Below are positions 720 to 22,480 of a stretch of DNA of 32,531 nucleotides, one piece after another (positions within the stretch are counted from its first letter, which is position 1; every line of letters begins with the position of its first letter). The stretch is from contig JAJDVC010000199.1 of the NCBI GenBank assembly GCA_022826305.1, forward strand, positions 1 to 32,531, in the 5' to 3' direction. The notes under the pieces were generated by a model that made no database searches, was not told the origin of the DNA, and saw only the letters and a program-made list of their open reading frames with translations. This DNA comes from Gammaproteobacteria bacterium. Its GTDB lineage: Bacteria; Pseudomonadota; Gammaproteobacteria; Arenicellales; Poriferihabitantaceae. The position numbers and the translations under genes are program-made.

Positions 720-825
720 GACCGGAATGCGAACGCAGGTTGGGCGATCCAGCGATCCAGCGATCCAGCGATCCAGCGATCCAGCGATCCAGCGATCCAG
801 CGATCCAGCGATCCAGCTTATTCAT
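658..825 (-). CDS. Short ORF (55 aa, MNKLDRWIAGSLDRWIAGS...) starting upstream of the octamer tract; possible out-of-frame leader of the surface protein
   Basis: ATG at 825-823 with SD-like GTGAGG about 8 nt upstream; reads through nine octamers then terminates at TGA 660-658, one frame off from the surface-protein ORF. Confidence 0.45.
   Translation of the reverse strand: MNKLDRWIAGSLDRWIAGSLDRWIAGSPNLRSHSGHDRGHMAAVPPSGLCPLLPA
745..816. repeat. Perfect tandem octamer (CGATCCAG)x9
   Basis: Directly read: nine identical 8-bp units; minus-strand unit CTGGATCG encodes the period LDRWIAGS. Confidence 0.98.
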
Positions 826-3508: not shown

Positions 3509-4286
3509 CTTCAGGGTTCTTCGTTGCAATCCCGGCGCAGGCTCGGGCAATGGCACAGGTGGCGCGTCCCGACTTGCGCTTCGGCACCATCAGCTCAGGC
3601 TGTGCGCCGGTAGCCCGTGCTGCTGCCAGAAGCGCTGCTGACTCCGCCACACCGTAGATGCCGACGGTCTCCTTCACATAGTCCGAACGCACCGACAGTA
3701 ACGGCTCCATCGGCGAGAGGTCGGCGGCGCTGAACACCTGGAAAGGTATGTTGAGGCGTCCGCACAGATTCCGCAGCCCGGGCTCATCGCGCTTGATATC
3801 GATACTGTTTACCGAGTGCAGGCTGTCTTTCGGCATCTCCGCCAGTCGGAGACACTGCTTGAGCAACGTTTCAAGCTCCTGGTCGCTGCAATTCCGTTCA
3901 CACCCCATTCCAGCCGTATAGACAGGCTCCGGGCAGGCGCTCGCAGTGGTCAGTACGGGCCGGGCCCCGATCGCGCCGGCAACCTCCATCGCAAGCGCGT
4001 TCGCACCGCCTTCGTGGCCGGACAGCAACGAAATGACATATGCGCCGACCTGGTCCAGCACCACTACCGGAGGATCCGTTTTCTTGCTCCCGAGGACCGG
4101 CGCCAGGGTGCGCACGACAATGCCGGTGGCACAGATCATCACCAGTGCATCCCCGTCCCGGAACGCCTGTTGAACCCGCGCCTTGAACGGGCTCGGCCTG
4201 TGCCACTGCCTGCAGTTCGGGAGACGCTTCACGATCTTCCTGCCCAGATCACGCCCTGCCGGGGTAAGGCTTACCACCTGTCTCAC
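3501..4286 (-). CDS. cbiG: Cobalamin biosynthesis protein CbiG (N-terminal plus CobE-like C-terminal regions)
   Basis: ICATGIVVRTLAPVLGSKKTDPPVVVLDQVGAYVISLLSGHEGGANALA and GMGCERNCS...; within cobalamin operon. Confidence 0.85.
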   Translation of the reverse strand: MRQVVSLTPAGRDLGRKIVKRLPNCRQWHRPSPFKARVQQAFRDGDALVMICATGIVVRTLAPVLGSKKTDPPVVVLDQVGAYVISLLSGHEGGANALAMEVAGAIGARPVLTTASACPEPVYTAGMGCERNCSDQELETLLKQCLRLAEMPKDSLHSVNSIDIKRDEPGLRNLCGRLNIPFQVFSAADLSPMEPLLSVRSDYVKETVGIYGVAESAALLAAARATGAQPELMVPKRKSGRATCAIARACAGIATKNPEDD

Positions 4287-5011
4287 TTGACCGCCCGCCC
4301 GGCGCGCATTACCAGAAACAGGGAAAAGTAGGGACCTGCTTCGACCGGAAGGCGGCTCACGTCGGTTTCGACACGCTGGTTGTCCCGTCCTATGTATTCA
4401 AGGTAAACCGCCTCCTCGGTCCGCCCGGCGCGCTCCAGCGCCTCGATAATCCGGGGGCGCGAACGACCCGCCTTCATGATGACGACACTGTCATGAGCAT
4501 CAAGCGTCTGCACTATCTGCCCAAGGTCATGGCGGCCGCTGGCTACGGCGAAAGACTCGTCCAGCAGGGTCAGCGGACGCTGCAACGCGGCGGAAGCAGC
4601 ATGCATTGAGGAAATGCCCGGCACGACTTCACAACGGTTATGCACAAGGCGTATCAGCAGGTATGCAAAGGAGCCGAAAAACAGGGGGTCGCCCTCGCAC
4701 AGGAACACGACCCGCTTGCCTGCGTCGATGCGTTGCTGGATGTCGGAAGCGGCCAGGTCGTAAATCCGGTTGGCAGGCGTGCGGTCGTCGTTCATCGGCA
4801 CCACGAAGGGGAGTTCCTCCTGGTGCCCGGGCGCCTCTTCAAGCAGTCCGCCAGCGATATCGCGCGCCTGCGACCTGCCGGGAGCACTGCAGATATAGCT
4901 GACCACATCTGCATGGAGAATACGGTCTGCCGCCCTGATGGTGATCAATCCGGGGTCACCCGGCCCCACGCCGACACCGGTAAAAGCAGATTGACAGGCC
5001 TCGATCTTCAT
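4283..5011 (-). CDS. cobI: Precorrin-2/cobalt-factor-II C20-methyltransferase
   Basis: GVGVGPGDPGLITIRAADRIL...FLCEGDPLFFGSFAYL...VVPGISSMHAASAALQRPLT. Confidence 0.87.
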   Translation of the reverse strand: MKIEACQSAFTGVGVGPGDPGLITIRAADRILHADVVSYICSAPGRSQARDIAGGLLEEAPGHQEELPFVVPMNDDRTPANRIYDLAASDIQQRIDAGKRVVFLCEGDPLFFGSFAYLLIRLVHNRCEVVPGISSMHAASAALQRPLTLLDESFAVASGRHDLGQIVQTLDAHDSVVIMKAGRSRPRIIEALERAGRTEEAVYLEYIGRDNQRVETDVSRLPVEAGPYFSLFLVMRAGRAVK

Positions 5012-6273
5012 CCATGCACACCTTCGCTCTTGCAAAGCCGGAACAGACTTACGGGTCGCTTCCGCGCCTGGGTCCATTCACCTGCACGGAACCTGCTCCG
5101 GCTTACCGCGATGTCAATGGATTCAGCCAGGGCGATGTCCCGCCGTTTGCAGAAACCCCGCAGGCACTCGCGGCTTGAACCGGTCACGGCGCTCGCGACC
5201 AGCAATCCGCCTGATGCCAGACGTTGCCAGCAGTAGTCCAGCAGCAGGGGCAACTTGCCTGCACTGCCTCCGATAAAGACCCGGTCCGGGTCCGGCACCG
5301 ACTCCAGTACCGCCGGCGCATTGCCATTCACGACCTCGACGTTGGACACGCCGAACCTTGCGCGGTTGGCGCGGATGCATCGCAGCCGTTCCGCATGACA
5401 TTCGACAGCGAATATCGTTGCGTCGGGATGCCACAGGGCAAGTTCGGTGGCGACGCCGCCGCACCCGGCACCGACATCCCAGACCAATTGATTCGCACCC
5501 GTCTGCAGGAGAGACAGGATCTGCAGCCTGGTCTCCCGCTTGCTGATCATCCCGGCACCGGGCCCGCCATCGGTAACAAGGTCGGTATCCCGGATACCCG
5601 GAAAGTCGGGGACGCCCCTGCCCCTGCCCCGAAGATGCAGCACGCTGATGTTCAGGTCGGCAAACGACCGGCCGGTATCCCTGTCGAACCCATTCACGTC
5701 AATACGGTGTATCTTCTCGTCATCGTAGCCGAGCCTTTCACAAACCCACAGGATCGACTGCTCCAGCTGCGCATCGATGCAGATGCCCGCCAGCGTGTCC
5801 GGGGGGCTGTTCTGGTCCGTAAGGATCACCAGCGTGCGGCCGGGCCGCAAATGACGGTTCAGGGTGTGCAGGGGTCTGCCGTGCAGGCTCACGACGGTGC
5901 AATCCTGCAACGACAGCCCGAGACGGCTGCAGGCGGCCTGGATGCTTGACAGGGCGCCATGAAACCTGAGCTTCGACAACGGATACTGTCGGCTCAGCCG
6001 CCGGCCGATGCCAAAGAACAGGGGATCGCCGGAGGCCAGGACGGCCACCTCGCCACCATGTCCTGCAAGCAGTGTATCCAGTTGTGCAACCTTCGACAGC
6101 GTGATCATCGGCGGCCAGTCAGCCGGCATTGTCCGGGTCATGGCACACAGCCATTCCAGGTGACGCTCGGTACCGATGATGGCCGAAGCGCCCCTGAGCG
6201 CCGCCTCGGCAACGGAACCCAGCCGGCCGCCGGCTTCCACGCCCAGGCCCACAACATGAATCCGGTCGGCCAT
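5008..6273 (-). CDS. cobL: Precorrin-6Y C5,15-methyltransferase (CbiE-CbiT fusion)
   Basis: MADRIHVVGLGVEA...LASGDPLFFGIGRRL... plus C-terminal ISKRETRLQILSLLQTGANQLVWDVGAGCGGVATE; ATGA overlap with cobH stop. Confidence 0.88.
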   Translation of the reverse strand: MADRIHVVGLGVEAGGRLGSVAEAALRGASAIIGTERHLEWLCAMTRTMPADWPPMITLSKVAQLDTLLAGHGGEVAVLASGDPLFFGIGRRLSRQYPLSKLRFHGALSSIQAACSRLGLSLQDCTVVSLHGRPLHTLNRHLRPGRTLVILTDQNSPPDTLAGICIDAQLEQSILWVCERLGYDDEKIHRIDVNGFDRDTGRSFADLNISVLHLRGRGRGVPDFPGIRDTDLVTDGGPGAGMISKRETRLQILSLLQTGANQLVWDVGAGCGGVATELALWHPDATIFAVECHAERLRCIRANRARFGVSNVEVVNGNAPAVLESVPDPDRVFIGGSAGKLPLLLDYCWQRLASGGLLVASAVTGSSRECLRGFCKRRDIALAESIDIAVSRSRFRAGEWTQARKRPVSLFRLCKSEGVHG

Positions 6274-14402: not shown

Positions 14403-14573
14403 TCCGGAACCGGGCGTGAGAGGCTTGCATCCGGCAGGTCCGCATCCGGAAGGACAGGCATATCGGCTGACCGGCATCCTGCAGAACCGGGATTGCACAG
14501 GAATTTCCGACTGCACACGCAATGCATCAGATCTGGTCATTTTTCCCACGGGATCAACCTGCAACCGGTACGC
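14403..14573. repeat. Dispersed direct repeat, copy 1 (~170 bp)
   Basis: Shares gcgtgag-ggcttgcatccggcaggt-tgcatcc-gaaggacaggcatatcgg ... gatcaacctgcaaccggtacgc with 18740-18913, same orientation. Confidence 0.85.
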
Positions 14574-15197
14574 CGAGTCGGTCCATCCTGGCCGTCTCAA
14601 CCAATGAGGCGATGCGGGACCAGGGCGTGCTGACACAGGCACGGGACTTCGAGCATTCCGATAACGGAATTCTCACTTCGTATCTCCGCAGGCTCGCCAA
14701 CCCCTCCTCCTGCGGATCACACCACGCAGCGACGGCGTCGGTCTCCGCAAGCCTCCATTCCCGGGTCTGAAAATCCCTGCAGCACAAGGCCCCCTTTCAT
14801 GCTCAGGGTTGCATCCGGGGCGGTGTGTGTATACGATCAGAAGTATCTGATCTTGGAAAATTTGCGTTGTGCAGCTTCTGTGATTCATGTTCGTTGGGTG
14901 CCACTTCAGGGGAGGCGTCTGGTTGGGGAACTGATCAAATCTTGTAATCTGCGACTTCCTGTTCACTCGACCCTGTTCATTTGGATGCGCCCGCGAAACC
15001 CATAGGTGCCCCAAATATCCTGGCCAAATGATCAAATTCTCATTCCGTTCGCAACGATCCATGAACCATAGCCCGTTGTCGCGAGGCGTATTTCACATGA
15101 TGGACTCCTGAAACCGATCAATGTACAAGATAATGCCGAGAAAAGAACTGATCCGGTCTCACGGGTGGATTGGTCACATGGACGAGTGCTCTCACGA

Positions 15198-16085
15198 ATG
15201 AATCATGTGAGCCCACTTCGCTATCCTGGGGGAAAATCCGCTCTTTCGGATTTCCTCATTGACATCATTGATCTCAACAACCTTCGTGATGGTGCTTATT
15301 ACGAGGCCTACGCAGGTGGAGCTGGCGCAGGGCTCAGGTTATTGATGGAAGGTGTCGTCTCGGAGATATATCTGAACGATGTCGACTCACGAATTCATGC
15401 GTTTTGGGTCAGTGTTCTTGACGAACCGGAGCGTTTCGAGAAGTCGATACGCGAAATACCGCTGTCTATTGAGGAATGGAAGAAGCAAAGGGAAATATAT
15501 CTGAACCCGGATCACCATGATCGGTTTGACCTCGGGTTTGCGGCATTCTATATGAACCGCTGCAACCGGTCGGGGATCTTGATGGATGCGGGTCCGATCG
15601 GTGGTTTTGGGCAGCAGGGAAAGTGGCATATGGGTGTACGTTTCAATCGGGAAACCCTTTCCAGGCGAGTACTCGATTTGGCTGGCTATCGTGAGAACAT
15701 CCATGTATTCAACAAGGATGCCATCAGATTTCTCAAGGAACACCTACCGAAAGGCCGTGGCAGGTCCCACGTGTTTGTCTATCTGGATCCTCCGTATGTG
15801 AACAAGGGTCGTCGCCTGTACTTCAATGCCTACGGAAAAAAGGACCATGCCACCCTGGCGAGGTATCTCCTGAACCAGAAATCACTGTACTGGATCATGT
15901 CCTACGACGATAACAGCCTGGTACGGGATTTGTACAGGGACCGCTTGAGGGCACTGGTGCACTCGAGCTACACGTTGCAGTCCAGGCGGTCCACACATGA
16001 GATCCTGATCGCCCCGGAACATGTAACTATCCCACTGGAACAACGTGTCGGACACAACCGGTTTCCATTAAGGAAAGTAGCGTAA
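15198..16085 (+). CDS. D12-class (Dam-like) DNA N6-adenine methyltransferase
   Basis: SPLRYPGGKSALSDFL (AdoMet motif), YYEAYAGGAGAGLRLL, FVYLDPPYVNKGRRLYFNAY (DPPY). ORF extends to 15165; MNHVSPLRYPGG at 15198 is the likely start. Confidence 0.92.
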   Translation: MNHVSPLRYPGGKSALSDFLIDIIDLNNLRDGAYYEAYAGGAGAGLRLLMEGVVSEIYLNDVDSRIHAFWVSVLDEPERFEKSIREIPLSIEEWKKQREIYLNPDHHDRFDLGFAAFYMNRCNRSGILMDAGPIGGFGQQGKWHMGVRFNRETLSRRVLDLAGYRENIHVFNKDAIRFLKEHLPKGRGRSHVFVYLDPPYVNKGRRLYFNAYGKKDHATLARYLLNQKSLYWIMSYDDNSLVRDLYRDRLRALVHSSYTLQSRRSTHEILIAPEHVTIPLEQRVGHNRFPLRKVA

Positions 16086-17207
16086 ATGGATCCTGCAATG
16101 CAAGACAACCAGGCGACCAGAACTCTGCCGACCAGGGAACTGCACCTCGACAGGAAAAATCCGAGGCTGGCGGAGCATGGTATCAATTCCGACACCCCGG
16201 AAAACGACATCATTGACATACTGTGGCAAGTGATGGACGTACAGGAGTTGGTACAGTCTATTGTCGCCAGTGGATTTTTCGAGCACGAGCCCCTGATCGT
16301 CGTTCAGGAAAACGACAGTTACATTGTTATCGAAGGAAACAGGCGTCTTGCCGCAGTCAGGGTGCTGTTGGACCGGAAGCTGGCGGATCGTGTCGGATGC
16401 AGATTCCGCATCAGGGAAAAGGCTGCCCTGAGAGCACTCGAGAATCTTCCGGTCAAGGTATCCGGGCGCAAAGATTCATGGCGTTATCTTGGATTCAAGC
16501 ACATTAATGGCCCGGCCAAGTGGAGCAGCTACGCCAAGGCGCAATACATAGCAGAAGTCCATCGAAAATATCATGTGCCTCTGGCAGATATTGCGGAACA
16601 GATCGGTGACCGTCACAAGACAGTACAGAGGCTTTATCGGGGCCTGATGGTGATGGAACAGGCCGAGAAAGCAGGTGTATACCGACGTGAAGATCGGTAC
16701 CGGACAGGATTTGCCTTTTCCCACCTCTATACAGGGCTGGATTATGACGGAATCAGCGATTTCCTGTCCCTGGGTCCCTCGAATGTCGAGAGCGAACGCC
16801 CGGTGCCGAGGAAAGCGCTCAAGGAACTCGGCGAGCTCTGCCTATGGCTGTATGGAAACAGGAATGACCAAGTACAGCCTGTAGTACAGACCCAGAACCC
16901 TGATTTGCGGCGACTGGATACAGTTCTCAAGAACAGGGAGTCACTTGCGGCACTTCGAGGTGGCGTACCCCTGGACAAGGCACTGGAAACTGGTCGCAAG
17001 CCAGAAGCAGTACTTGAAGAATCCCTTCTTGAAGCAAAGCGCTCCCTGCAACAAGCCAGTGGGTATGTCACCACAGGATTCAAGGAGTCACGCGCCATTC
17101 AGTCAATAGCAGAAGATGTCAGTGACTTGGCCAATGATCTCTGCGATCAACTGAATCGCAAAATACAGCGGGCCGGTCGCAGAAGCTCTAAATCATCGGG
17201 CGGCTGA
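16086..17207 (+). CDS. ParB N-terminal (Srx/ParB fold) protein with GNRR motif
   Basis: LHLDRKNPRLAEHG...LVQSIVASGFFEHEPLIVVQENDSYIVIEGNRRLAAVRVLL...; begins immediately after the methylase stop. Confidence 0.82.
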   Translation: MDPAMQDNQATRTLPTRELHLDRKNPRLAEHGINSDTPENDIIDILWQVMDVQELVQSIVASGFFEHEPLIVVQENDSYIVIEGNRRLAAVRVLLDRKLADRVGCRFRIREKAALRALENLPVKVSGRKDSWRYLGFKHINGPAKWSSYAKAQYIAEVHRKYHVPLADIAEQIGDRHKTVQRLYRGLMVMEQAEKAGVYRREDRYRTGFAFSHLYTGLDYDGISDFLSLGPSNVESERPVPRKALKELGELCLWLYGNRNDQVQPVVQTQNPDLRRLDTVLKNRESLAALRGGVPLDKALETGRKPEAVLEESLLEAKRSLQQASGYVTTGFKESRAIQSIAEDVSDLANDLCDQLNRKIQRAGRRSSKSSGG

Positions 17208-17218
17208 AGGAACCAGTC

Positions 17219-18253
17219 TTGTTCAAGCTGCCGAACCTTCCCAACCCCGGGGCGGATTGCCAGGAACTGGCAGATTTTGCCGAGATAAGGTGCTGGATAG
17301 ACAATACCAGGCATGCGCACAAGAGCTTGTCCGAATCTGAAATTGTCAGATATCTCGTGCAAACTGACGATAACGACAAGAATTCCGGGTGTGATGACAG
17401 TGAGGATGCAATCCGGGACAGGGTCAGTGAAGCAATGGGAGAAATCAGCCGAAGAGCCGAAATTTGCCGTGATGGCTACCCGTTTCACCAGGGTCGCGAT
17501 GGTCAAACACTGAAATTTGCACCAATGCGTAAGGGAAGGAAACAAAAAGCAGTCTATCTGTACTTGCTTCTTTGTACCCGCCTCAATATGCAGAAACAAC
17601 GTATGCATGCTGATCTGGACGGAACCCGGCTTCTCGAAATTCTTTCAGGCCATGTGCTGCAGACATATCTCGGGCCGAATTCCCGGAACCTGTTGTTTGG
17701 AACAGCAACGACGGGCGGATTTAGGGGCAAGGTGAACGACCTTTGTCAGAAGTTGGGTGAAGGAGGATCATACCGTCAGATTGATGACAGGAGCGATCAG
17801 GCGAAAGACGGCGGACTGGATACGGTTGGCTGGATACCATTCGCTGATCGGAGTCCCGGCCAGTTGATCATATTCGGTCAGTGCAAGACAGGAACCAACT
17901 GGCGTGATGACACTACCAAGCTACACCCAGAGAATTTTGCCAAAATCTGTTTGTCCGACTCCTTCCTTGTCGATCCGCTGCGCGCATTTTTTGTGTCCGA
18001 ATCGGTTGATCGGTCTATCTGGAAGAAAGCAGTCATCAGTGCCGGTATTCTTTTTGACCGATGCCGGCTTGTGGAGCACAGCGGGAATCTTCCATCAGGA
18101 ATCTTCAGCGACATTTCCATCTGGAACAAGGAGGCCGTGAAGTCAGTGGCACAGTCTTTTTGGTCTCGTGTTCATGGAGGAATGGTTTCCAAGGATAGGA
18201 CCAGACCGAATGGCACCATTACGAAACAATCTGGACAACAACTCTCAGGATAG
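17219..18253 (+). CDS. Putative PD-(D/E)XK-like restriction nuclease of the methylase/ParB cassette
   Basis: TTG start with AAGGA upstream; AKDGGLDTVGWIPFADRSPGQLIIFGQCKTG fits a GxD...QxK nuclease core; operonic with methylase and ParB genes. Confidence 0.6.
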   Translation: MFKLPNLPNPGADCQELADFAEIRCWIDNTRHAHKSLSESEIVRYLVQTDDNDKNSGCDDSEDAIRDRVSEAMGEISRRAEICRDGYPFHQGRDGQTLKFAPMRKGRKQKAVYLYLLLCTRLNMQKQRMHADLDGTRLLEILSGHVLQTYLGPNSRNLLFGTATTGGFRGKVNDLCQKLGEGGSYRQIDDRSDQAKDGGLDTVGWIPFADRSPGQLIIFGQCKTGTNWRDDTTKLHPENFAKICLSDSFLVDPLRAFFVSESVDRSIWKKAVISAGILFDRCRLVEHSGNLPSGIFSDISIWNKEAVKSVAQSFWSRVHGGMVSKDRTRPNGTITKQSGQQLSG

Positions 18254-18617
18254 TGAAGGAATATCTTCTACGAACGAACATAGCATCCCCTACAACTGGT
18301 TGATTGATCTGATTTTATCGTTTACTTCCACCAGATCCGGCATCATTTCAGATTCAGATGTATTCGACATGGGGTCAGCACAAGCACATATCTGGCGGCA
18401 GTCGATGGGGCACACCAGCAACCTCCGTCTCCGGACAGAAGCGGACTTCGGTCCACTGTTCAGTGTTCCCAAGACCTTCCTTACAGCAATTCCAGACGCA
18501 TCCCCACCAGCGGCATCATTCCTCCCGACTCAGGAATTTATCCAACCCTTGTTGCTGGTCGGTCTAGCCCGAAAAATGCATGAGAGAGGAGGGTGGAACC
18601 TCAATCATGTGATATAA
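18210..18617 (+). CDS. Small hypothetical protein overlapping the nuclease 3' end
   Basis: MAPLRNNLDNNSQDSEGISSTNEHSIPYNWLIDLILSFTS...LLLVGLARKMHERGGWNLNHVI; out-of-frame 44-nt overlap with the upstream ORF. Confidence 0.45.
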   Translation: MAPLRNNLDNNSQDSEGISSTNEHSIPYNWLIDLILSFTSTRSGIISDSDVFDMGSAQAHIWRQSMGHTSNLRLRTEADFGPLFSVPKTFLTAIPDASPPAASFLPTQEFIQPLLLVGLARKMHERGGWNLNHVI

Positions 18618-18739: not shown

Positions 18740-18913
18740 ACCGGCAACGGCGGCGTGAGGGGCTTGCATCCGGCAGGTCTGCATCCAGAAGGACAGGCAT
18801 ATCGGTTAGCCAGCATCCCGCAGGGCCAGAATTGCACAAGAAATTCTGACTACATAAGCAATTGAGGAGGTTTGAAAACTTTCCCCCCTGCGATCAACCT
18901 GCAACCGGTACGC
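18740..18913. repeat. Dispersed direct repeat, copy 2 (~170 bp)
   Basis: Homologous to 14403-14573, same orientation, diverged centrally. Confidence 0.85.
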
Positions 18914-18959
18914 TGAAGCGCATCCGTGTCTACAACAGAAGAGGATTGACCTTCTACGG

Positions 18960-18990
18960 CTGTAGGCATATGGTTGGCATATGCCTACAG
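18960..18990. promoter_or_regulatory. Perfect 13-bp inverted repeat overlapping the vapB start codon
   Basis: CTGTAGGCATATG-GTTGG-CATATGCCTACAG; the vapB ATG (18981-18983) lies in the right arm. Confidence 0.85.
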
Positions 18991-19244
18991 ATTCACAAAA
19001 CCTTTCCAGATCTGCCCGCCATGCTCGGCTGTTCCGCAATGGCCGCAATCAGGCAGTTCGCATTCCGCGAGAATTTGAACTATCAGCGGACGAGGTGATG
19101 ATCTACAAGGAAGATGGCCGTCTTGTCGTTGTGCCGATCAAGCGGTCCCCAACCCTAGCCGAGGTTTTGTCGCGGCTTACCCCCCTTGAAGAAAACTTCC
19201 CAGACATGGCAGATCCGCCAGTCGCACTGGAAGATTTCCTCTGA
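18981..19244 (+). CDS. vapB: VapB-type antitoxin (AbrB/MazE-like DNA-binding)
   Basis: ARLFRNGRNQAVRIPREFELSADEVMIYKEDGRLVVVPI. Confidence 0.88.
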   Translation: MPTDSQNLSRSARHARLFRNGRNQAVRIPREFELSADEVMIYKEDGRLVVVPIKRSPTLAEVLSRLTPLEENFPDMADPPVALEDFL

Positions 19245-19245
19245 C

Positions 19246-19650
19246 GTGGTACAACTGCAATACATGCTGGATACTAACGTTGTATCCGATCTGGTACGCC
19301 AGCCCGGTGGATCCATCGCGCAACGGGCTACCGCTCTTGAACCAGGAAGTGTTGCTGTCAGCATTATCGTCGCATCCGAGCTTCGATACGGTGCGAAACG
19401 CCGCGGGTCCATGCGCCTGACAAAACAGCTCGATGCTGTGCTCTCGGCCATTGAGACCGTCCCTCTAGGGGAGCCCGCAGACAGGCATTACGGCTTGATC
19501 CGCAGTGAACTGGAGCGAATCGGTCTCCCGATTGGGCATAATGACCTGCTGATTGCTGCCCATGCGAGAGCACTCGGTACAACACTTGTAACGAAGAACA
19601 CCAGCGAATTCAGCCGTGTTCCGGGTCTTGAAGTTGACGATTGGGTGTAA
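19246..19650 (+). CDS. vapC: VapC PIN-domain toxin
   Basis: MLDTNVVSDLVRQPGG...VAVSIIVASELRYGAKRR...PIGHNDLLIAAHARALGTTLVTKNTSEFSRVPGL. GTG at 19246 or ATG at 19264. Confidence 0.9.
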   Translation: MVQLQYMLDTNVVSDLVRQPGGSIAQRATALEPGSVAVSIIVASELRYGAKRRGSMRLTKQLDAVLSAIETVPLGEPADRHYGLIRSELERIGLPIGHNDLLIAAHARALGTTLVTKNTSEFSRVPGLEVDDWV

Positions 19651-20850: not shown

Positions 20851-22197
20851 TCAGATATGTTCCGGAAACTCGTCGGACGCCTTCTGCATATCCACCAGTG
20901 CCTGCTTACGGAGCGCCAGCGTCTCGTGCCATTCTTGCGCCTCCCGATCCTTGACAAAACCTGCATTGGGAGCAAGTTTCCTTACAGCCCCTTCCACCTC
21001 ATCCAGAGTAACCCGAAAAAACTCCTTGCGAAGATTGGACGCATTGATTCGCCGGTCAGAAAACTCCTTGTGCAGTGCGACCTCCAGAGCCGGTGCGTCT
21101 TCCGAGTAAATAATCGCATGCGTGTCGAACTTGAAGGGAACACTGGCGTCACCCAGCTCCCGAACGCGATCATCTGGATCCAGCCTTCGGGTCAGACCAA
21201 TCTTCACCACATCGCCACCGAACGAGCCGATGTTCGAGACAATGTAGACGTAGCCGGACCGGGTCATCTGCGCCATCGCACGCGCACGTGAGCTCCTGGC
21301 CTGGGCTGCGGCCAGCTGTGTTTCCAATTCTGCGATGCGGCTCATATCAACGCCAGCCTGATTTCTAGCCTCGTTGAGGAGGCCAGCAAACTTTCGTTCT
21401 TCTCGTTGAGCGGCCTCAGCTTCCGCGAGCAGCTTTTTCTCCTCGTGTTCAGCACGTGCCAGTTCCGCGCGTTCGTCTTTCTCAATCTTGAGGCGCTCCC
21501 GGTATTCGTGTGTCAGGTACAGTTCCTCAAGTTTCAGGACCACGTAGTCCTCGTGGATGACCAAATTCATGGAGGCGTTGGCATTGTTGATCTGTTTGGC
21601 TGCATCGAGAATACGTTTTTCCATGGCGATGACGTTGTTCCATCGCGTATTGGCGATCGCTGCCTCACATTCGTTGTTGAAAGCTCTCATGGTGAGGCGG
21701 GTTTGCCTGTTGACCATGGTCTGTCCTTTGGAGCGACTGCCGTCGACCGCCCAGTCGGTAGGGCAAGTCGTAGCTTCCTTTGACGAGACCATCGCCTTCT
21801 GACGCTCTCGAACGAGTTTGATGCTCTCCTTGTAAGCATCACTGTCTCCGAAGTCGAAATGCGGTTCATAGACTCCCAGTTCTGCGAAAGAGATGCGTTC
21901 GTCGTAGATTGCGACCTGCTGTTCAAGTTTTTTCAACGTGGAGCGCTTCTCGGCGTACTGTGCCCGCACCTCATCTGTTTCTTTCCGCCCCTGTTCGGCA
22001 GACGACCGAAGTCGGTCCATTTCCGACTCGATGGAGATAATGGGCGCATACTTGTGCTTTAGTGCCTCGATTTCTCGTTCCTGATTCCTGATTGCCTTCC
22101 TGGAGGCCTTGGCCCGCTTTCTCGCTACCAGCCAAAGGACAAGAAGGACGGGCGGGAGAATGAACCAGACAAGCAAGGCGATGGTGGACGGGGTCAC
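20851..22197 (-). CDS. DUF4041 protein with C-terminal T5orf172/GIY-YIG-like nuclease domain and N-terminal TM helix
   Basis: N-terminal ALLVWFILPPVLLVLWLVARKR; coiled-coil centre; GYVYIVSNIGSFGGDVVKIGLTRRLDPDDRVRELGDASVPFKFDTHAIIYSEDAPALEVALHKEF. Confidence 0.85.
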   Translation of the reverse strand: MTPSTIALLVWFILPPVLLVLWLVARKRAKASRKAIRNQEREIEALKHKYAPIISIESEMDRLRSSAEQGRKETDEVRAQYAEKRSTLKKLEQQVAIYDERISFAELGVYEPHFDFGDSDAYKESIKLVRERQKAMVSSKEATTCPTDWAVDGSRSKGQTMVNRQTRLTMRAFNNECEAAIANTRWNNVIAMEKRILDAAKQINNANASMNLVIHEDYVVLKLEELYLTHEYRERLKIEKDERAELARAEHEEKKLLAEAEAAQREERKFAGLLNEARNQAGVDMSRIAELETQLAAAQARSSRARAMAQMTRSGYVYIVSNIGSFGGDVVKIGLTRRLDPDDRVRELGDASVPFKFDTHAIIYSEDAPALEVALHKEFSDRRINASNLRKEFFRVTLDEVEGAVRKLAPNAGFVKDREAQEWHETLALRKQALVDMQKASDEFPEHI

Positions 22198-22389: not shown

Positions 22390-22480
22390 TGGCGGAGAGA
22401 GAGGGATTCGAACCCTCGATACGCTGTTAACGTATACTCCCTTAGCAGGGGAGCGCCTTCAGCCACTCGGCCATCTCTCC
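22390..22480 (-). tRNA. serX: tRNA-Ser(GCU), CCA encoded
   Basis: Reverse strand GGAGAGATGGCCGAGTGGCTGAAGGCGCTCCCCTGCTAAGGGAGTATACGTTAACAGCGTATCGAGGGTTCGAATCCCTCTCTCTCCGCCA; long variable arm, anticodon GCT. Confidence 0.95.

Follow-up and report, generated by a model that had tools for sequence, protein, structure and literature searches.

A three-gene operon joining a DNA methylase, a ParB-type protein and a predicted nuclease: a candidate restriction–modification system related to PD-lambda-5

The closest described relative of the genes discussed here is PD-lambda-5, a system that protects Escherichia coli from many phages in experiments and that Vassallo et al. call a compacted restriction–modification (R-M) plus abortive infection (Abi) system (Vassallo et al. 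2022, PMC9519451). Proteins with a ParB fold and no partition partner are a second strand of the story; such orphans are abundant on mobile elements and mostly have no known function (PMC12704722). Our subject is a three-gene operon in which a D12-class adenine methylase, a ParB-type protein and a predicted nuclease are encoded one behind the other. It lies on a contig of 32,531 nucleotides (JAJDVC010000199.1, referred to throughout as the window) from a Gammaproteobacteria bacterium, the genome of which comprises 3.03 Mb in 263 contigs (GCA_022826305.1). To our knowledge, R-M systems normally operate without a ParB-like clamp. We consider it likely that this locus is a mobile R-M system with a ParB-type subunit and a methylase that marks self DNA, because the methylase is interchangeable, ParB and nuclease are tightly linked and the nuclease has a recognizable active site. 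The case is built from three protein families, predicted folds, co-inheritance, methylase exchange and the placement of the genes in type I operons and phage accessory regions. That the genes would act in defence is supported by PD-lambda-5 being experimentally defensive (PMC9519451).

A search of GTDB genomes seeded with the nuclease alone returned 23 loci, spanning Nitrospirota, Planctomycetota, Pseudomonadota, Latescibacterota, Lentisphaerota, Gemmatimonadota, Cyanobacteriota, Chloroflexota, Binatota and others. The trio is complete in 17 of these, in the same order and on the same strand with the methylase orthologue directly upstream of ParB, and two further loci are cut off by contig ends. 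Across the 17, identity to the window proteins is 49–61% for the methylase, 53–59% for ParB and 38–49% for the nuclease. The genes are tightly packed: methylase and ParB mostly overlap by 4 nucleotides or are a few nucleotides apart, and the ParB–nuclease junctions of related loci run from −1 to +6 nucleotides. In the window the methylase stop codon ends at 16085 and directly abuts the ParB ATG, with 11 nucleotides between ParB and the TTG start of the nuclease. Because the arrangement recurs across at least nine phyla, it is far beyond chance. It is also rare, occurring in about 1% of the sampled genomes of the class. Distance matrices for the three genes agree with one another (Mantel r 0.85, 0.88 and 0.90; 0 of 2000 permutations), the ParB tree mixes phyla, and the ParB copies of Gemmatimonadota and Zoogloea are nearly identical. 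Judged by these comparisons, the trio is inherited as a unit and has spread horizontally. Two of the 23 loci carry ParB and nuclease beside a different D12 methylase. At one of them (L031, 8319–10143, minus strand) the D12 methylase is the partner of a NotI-type endonuclease, and these two adjoin an otherwise methylase-less ParB–nuclease pair.

The exchange of methylases goes much further. The ParB–nuclease pair recurs in phages, plasmids and other genomes with D12, C5-cytosine (PF00145) or N6_N4 (PF01555) methylases. The C5-cytosine enzyme is encoded convergently in P2-like Wphi, 12474, Pseudomonas phage D14A and G290; D12 enzymes are convergent with the pair or downstream of it; and a Mesorhizobium plasmid has an N6_N4 methylase downstream. 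A profile survey covered 59 loci, among them PD-lambda-5-like loci in which a longer ParB protein is followed by a D12 methylase with no nuclease. ParB and nuclease occur together in 41, with a methylase adjacent, upstream or downstream, in 40 (20 of 21 clusters after ParB clustering at 85% identity); L052 is the single ParB–nuclease locus where no methylase was recognized. An interchangeable methylase is a hallmark of R-M, and so the exchange points to R-M here. Querying viral sequences with the window-type nuclease gave no match, and starting from ParB or the phage nucleases gave many; a broad alignment was too weakly conserved for pattern scanning.

A ParB fold in loci on plasmids and phages could also signify partition or maintenance genes that adjoin the others by chance. 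We give this a very small probability, given that most of the genome loci are chromosomal, that no parA or ParA-like open reading frame (ORF) adjoins the operon in the window and that the constant partnership with nuclease and methylase, seen already in their co-conservation, speaks against it.

At five loci (L019, L023, L026, L033 and L018) the trio is embedded in a type I R-M operon, with hsdM/hsdS on one side and hsdR on the other; at L018 only hsd remnants surround it. In two of the five, hsdS overlaps the methylase start by 4 nucleotides. The trio of the window stands alone, and no hsd gene was matched anywhere in the window. As in type II R-M, the methyltransferase gene adjoins the endonuclease gene and is inherited with it, but a plain type II enzyme is made less likely by a ParB partner that is almost always present. 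As a separate observation, ParB–nuclease pairs in L005 (6248–10264, minus strand, and 3509–5702, plus strand) and L004 (697–6774, plus strand) adjoin a Z1-domain protein, with no methylase recognized nearby; at L004 there are also a protein annotated with a PD-(D/E)XK motif and a DUF262 protein upstream. The pair may therefore also serve other defence systems.

The predicted nuclease has an N-terminal winged helix (residues about 14–100) followed by a PD-(D/E)XK core. The core residues, E140 and the motif D201-x19-Q221-C-K223 within KDGGLD...FGQCKTG, are invariant over 22 homologues. The AlphaFold model (predicted local distance difference test, pLDDT, 87.7; predicted template modelling score, pTM, 0.87) shows an alpha-beta-beta-beta-alpha-beta core with E140 in helix 135–151, D201 opening one strand and Q221-C-K223 closing the next. 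Foldseek put MspJI first (prob 0.99, E=2e-3), with AspBHI (prob 0.85) and winged-helix domains also matched. Model core and invariant residues together place the protein in the PD-(D/E)XK superfamily, the structure match being modest. The nuclease had no match in Pfam, NCBIfam or PADLOC and no solved homologue by sequence search; it belongs with phrog_14650 (E=3e-20), and the function of the phrog_14650/3984 family is not annotated. Members of the window subfamily carry the active-site lysine at Q+2; the others carry it in a [WY]xxK that follows. Of 69 nuclease entries scanned, among which some loci appear twice, 64 have D-x(19-22)-Q together with a lysine in one of these two places. The nuclease gene of one Pseudomonas prophage relative (L078, 5738–7136) is in two parts, with about 0.9 kb of other DNA between them.

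Could the nuclease instead depend on modification, like type IV, MspJI- or Mrr-like enzymes, making the operon a selfish or switchable element and not a classical R-M system? The fold search leads to MspJI and AspBHI, and winged helices can read N6-methyladenine (6mA) in winged-helix-fusion endonucleases (PMC11037411). Against this, a nuclease that needs 6mA would attack the host if encoded together with a 6mA methylase of its own; the family also occurs next to C5 methylases, and an SRA domain is absent. We regard this alternative as highly unlikely.

The second protein consists of a ParB N-domain, a helix-turn-helix (HTH) at about 163–187 and long C-terminal helices. It matches phrog_3694 over its full length (E=3e-75), and its matches to Pfam ParB_N and NCBIfam parB_part are below threshold. 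Sequence searches for solved homologues gave marginal matches only. In the model (pLDDT 86.5), N-domain and HTH align with the cytidine triphosphate (CTP)-dependent clamps KorB, ParB and Noc (Foldseek prob 1.00, E about 1e-6), and there are 21 PDB matches at E<1e-3. Two stretches, IEGNRRLAAV (82–91) and the loop GFKHxNGPAKW (136–146), are nearly or fully invariant over 20 homologues. We would expect the loop, by analogy, to lie where ParB has its phosphate-contacting motif. Its residues 139–144 have pLDDT below 50, which, together with that position, would fit a loop that becomes ordered on nucleotide binding. One relative (L028, 5892–7001) has an in-frame stop in ParB at the position where the window protein has W132, a conserved tryptophan; its methylase and nuclease are intact.

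An HTH, and KorB, a transcriptional repressor, among the top structural matches, raise the thought that the ParB-like protein is a KorB- or C-protein-like transcriptional controller serving a type II R-M pair that is otherwise ordinary. We find this improbable, since ParB is kept with the nuclease irrespective of methylase class and orientation, shows the highest conservation in the trio (mean identity 0.62) and, in PD-lambda-5, contributes the same domain to a fusion with a presumed effector.

The methylase, in which DPPY is present, matches PF02086 (E=2e-12) and, far more strongly, PADLOC's PD-Lambda-5_B (PDLC04018; E=4e-99, 279 of 291 positions). The N-terminal part of ParB in turn matches PD-Lambda-5_A (E=6e-25). 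By sequence the operon and PD-lambda-5 are related by descent, with a different effector and architecture. One alternative is that the operon is simply a divergent PD-lambda-5, defending through methylase and ParB by abortive infection, as the description of compacted RM+Abi might suggest (PMC9519451), with the nuclease merely replacing the fused C-terminal effector. True PD-lambda-5 loci (L037 and L038) indeed pair a ParB fusion of 476–483 amino acids with the same methylase family and have no nuclease gene. The window ParB, however, matches only from residue 16 to about residue 174 of 373 (profile positions 16–176 of 473), whereas bona fide members, with ParB_N and about 300 C-terminal amino acids, span 8–463; its full-length family is phrog_3694, not phrog_9592; and PADLOC has nothing for gene 3. 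This alternative seems to us rather unlikely. Canonical PD-lambda-5 was rejected as an identification on the partial ParB coverage and a third gene without counterpart there.

The earlier note on this DNA, made from the sequence alone, is supported in part. Its ORF coordinates and packing proved exact, its D12 methylase and ParB-fold GNRR protein are borne out by the profile and structure matches, and the PD-(D/E)XK-like nuclease, the fold of which it wanted checked, is predicted as such by a confident model. The sensing or translocation and the nucleotide-dependent switch that it suggested are putative roles.

In the R-M system that we favour, the D12 enzyme would methylate adenine in a host motif, marking self DNA. 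The ParB-type protein would bind DNA via its HTH, probably close as a nucleotide-gated clamp (using CTP or another nucleoside triphosphate) and slide, and serve the winged-helix nuclease as a DNA-recognition, loading or licensing subunit. Unmethylated incoming DNA would then be cut at the PD-(D/E)XK centre, E140-D201-Q221-K223. We infer from the genes that methylation blocks cutting, that ParB and nuclease form a complex and that cleavage serves anti-phage defence; loading, nucleotide-dependent closing, sliding and nuclease recruitment are modelled on ParB, KorB and Noc. A bolder proposal, which we offer tentatively, is that the operon represents a distinct restriction class with a wide distribution among bacteria and temperate phages. 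In such a class a nucleotide-gated clamp of the ParB type would be loaded onto invading DNA that lacks modification, slide along it and either license the nuclease or deliver it, with methylases of at least three chemistries exchanged as the module that marks self.

Several points weigh against the R-M system that we favour. The nuclease resembles solved enzymes only modestly in fold, and its best matches, MspJI and AspBHI, cut modified and not unmodified DNA (PMC3874153). The use of CTP cannot be assumed because the canonical nucleotide motifs GERR and ENxQR are altered to GNRR and KHxNG, and the nucleotide preference of ParB-type proteins is not predictable from sequence (PMC12704722). Nothing convincing was found upstream of the operon in the way of a parS-like operator or shared palindromes. 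Finally, among the 23 loci, L017 has ParB and nuclease without an adjacent methylase and L032 the nuclease alone, so that protection at these loci must be dispensable or supplied elsewhere.

Table 1. Coordinates in the window of the operon genes, the fourth open reading frame and the flanking repeats
Feature	Coordinates	Strand	Evidence
D12-class (Dam-like) N6-adenine DNA methyltransferase, 295 amino acids, modification subunit	15198–16085	+	PF02086, PADLOC, orthologues
ParB/KorB/Noc-type protein with HTH, 373 amino acids	16086–17207	+	PADLOC, phrog_3694, AlphaFold, Foldseek
Restriction nuclease (predicted), 344 amino acids; N-terminal winged helix and PD-(D/E)XK core	17219–18253	+	Invariant residues, AlphaFold, Foldseek, phrog_14650
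Fourth ORF, probably spurious or a fragment	18168–18617 (GTG at 18168, or start at 18210)	+	No family match, absent from relatives
Left copy of imperfect direct repeat flanking the cassette	14413–14576	+	80% identical to right copy
Right copy of imperfect direct repeat flanking the cassette	18752–18916	+	80% identical to left copy

A cobalamin gene cluster lies on one side of the operon and a tRNA-Ser gene (22390–22480) on the other. In relatives other genes adjoin the same tRNA-Ser(gct), and the locus is thus variable; comparison of these surroundings yielded no clean empty site. The cassette is flanked by the 164-bp imperfect direct repeat of Table 1. A dispersed genomic repeat was considered for these flanks and rejected, as the genome has two copies only, both here. 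A scan for promoters and terminators gave no more matches than in shuffles. Directly beside the right repeat is a VapBC-like pair (18981–19650, plus strand), an AbrB/MazE-type antitoxin followed by a PIN-domain toxin. Nearby (20851–22197, minus strand) is a protein with DUF4041 and T5orf172/MUG113 (GIY-YIG-like) domains that fits a defence protein described by Vassallo et al. 2022 (DUF4041 coiled coil, C-terminal DNA-cleavage domain). A repeat-bounded island with a toxin–antitoxin pair and defence-like neighbours is what the earlier note had reported, and so it proved. Its fourth component fared differently. An open reading frame is present, but it has no family match in profile libraries, is absent from all 23 related loci and went unmatched in 299 sampled genomes, save for a 38-amino-acid stretch elsewhere in its own genome. 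We rejected it as a component; it is probably a spurious ORF or a fragment, and co-conservation, which the note wanted checked, holds for three ORFs of the four. Elsewhere in the window (736–825) an 8-bp unit, GCGATCCA, is repeated in a short tandem array.

The operon offers a directly testable case of a chromosome-segregation clamp fold serving DNA restriction. Its family explains several "hypothetical" phage gene pairs, such as Wphi gp98/gp96, and links PD-lambda-5 with a larger modular family, only part of which is reported by current defence finders. If the clamp-based class is real, it would provide a function for a large set of orphan ParB proteins.

How, then, does the locus compare with known systems? 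As the earlier note maintained, the layout is unlike types I, II and III, BREX, DISARM or Dnd; the four ORFs have no PADLOC match to PglZ/BrxL, DrmABC, DndBCDE, HsdRMS or Mod/Res. GmrSD likewise restricts DNA by means of a ParB/Srx-fold NTPase domain paired with a nuclease domain (Machnicka 2015, PMC4619093; Silas 2025, PMC12373910), but its DUF262 has DGQxR where the window ParB has EGNRR and an HTH, and its nuclease is HNH, modification-dependent and without a cognate methylase, in contrast to PD-(D/E)XK and a methylase here. No window protein matches DUF262 or DUF1524. MspJI and Mrr-like enzymes share the predicted catalytic fold and the D...QxK active site; MspJI, however, has its own SRA-like domain that reads 5-methylcytosine, requires methylated DNA and has no ParB partner. 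The ParB, KorB and Noc clamps (surveyed in Kaljevic 2025, PMC12704722) share N-domain and HTH, whereas the window protein has no ParA, a different C-terminus, altered nucleotide motifs, and a nuclease and a methylase as partners. Phage Wphi gp98-gp96-mth, among the P2-like accessory genes, and the D14A locus hold the same ParB and nuclease families (phrog_3694; phrog_3984/14650) with a methylase adjoining; there the methylase is a convergent C5-cytosine enzyme, and the proteins, annotated as hypothetical or by domain only, are about 20–30% identical to those of the window.

Full-text searches of open-licence papers, REBASE lying outside the search, found no published description or name for the three-part system. 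Whether it is identical to a named system, a possibility that the earlier note had raised, is answered in part by PD-lambda-5: methylase and ParB N-domain are homologous to its B and A proteins and the genes are likewise adjacent, but the full-length ParB and the nuclease find no equivalent there. PD-Lambda-5_A is mostly a fusion of 430–590 amino acids with a different C-terminal region, its gene precedes that of the methylase, and no winged-helix PD-(D/E)XK nuclease gene follows. What we have is a little-described three-part system that shares two components with PD-lambda-5 and adds a nuclease, and there is a real chance that it constitutes a distinct class of restriction.

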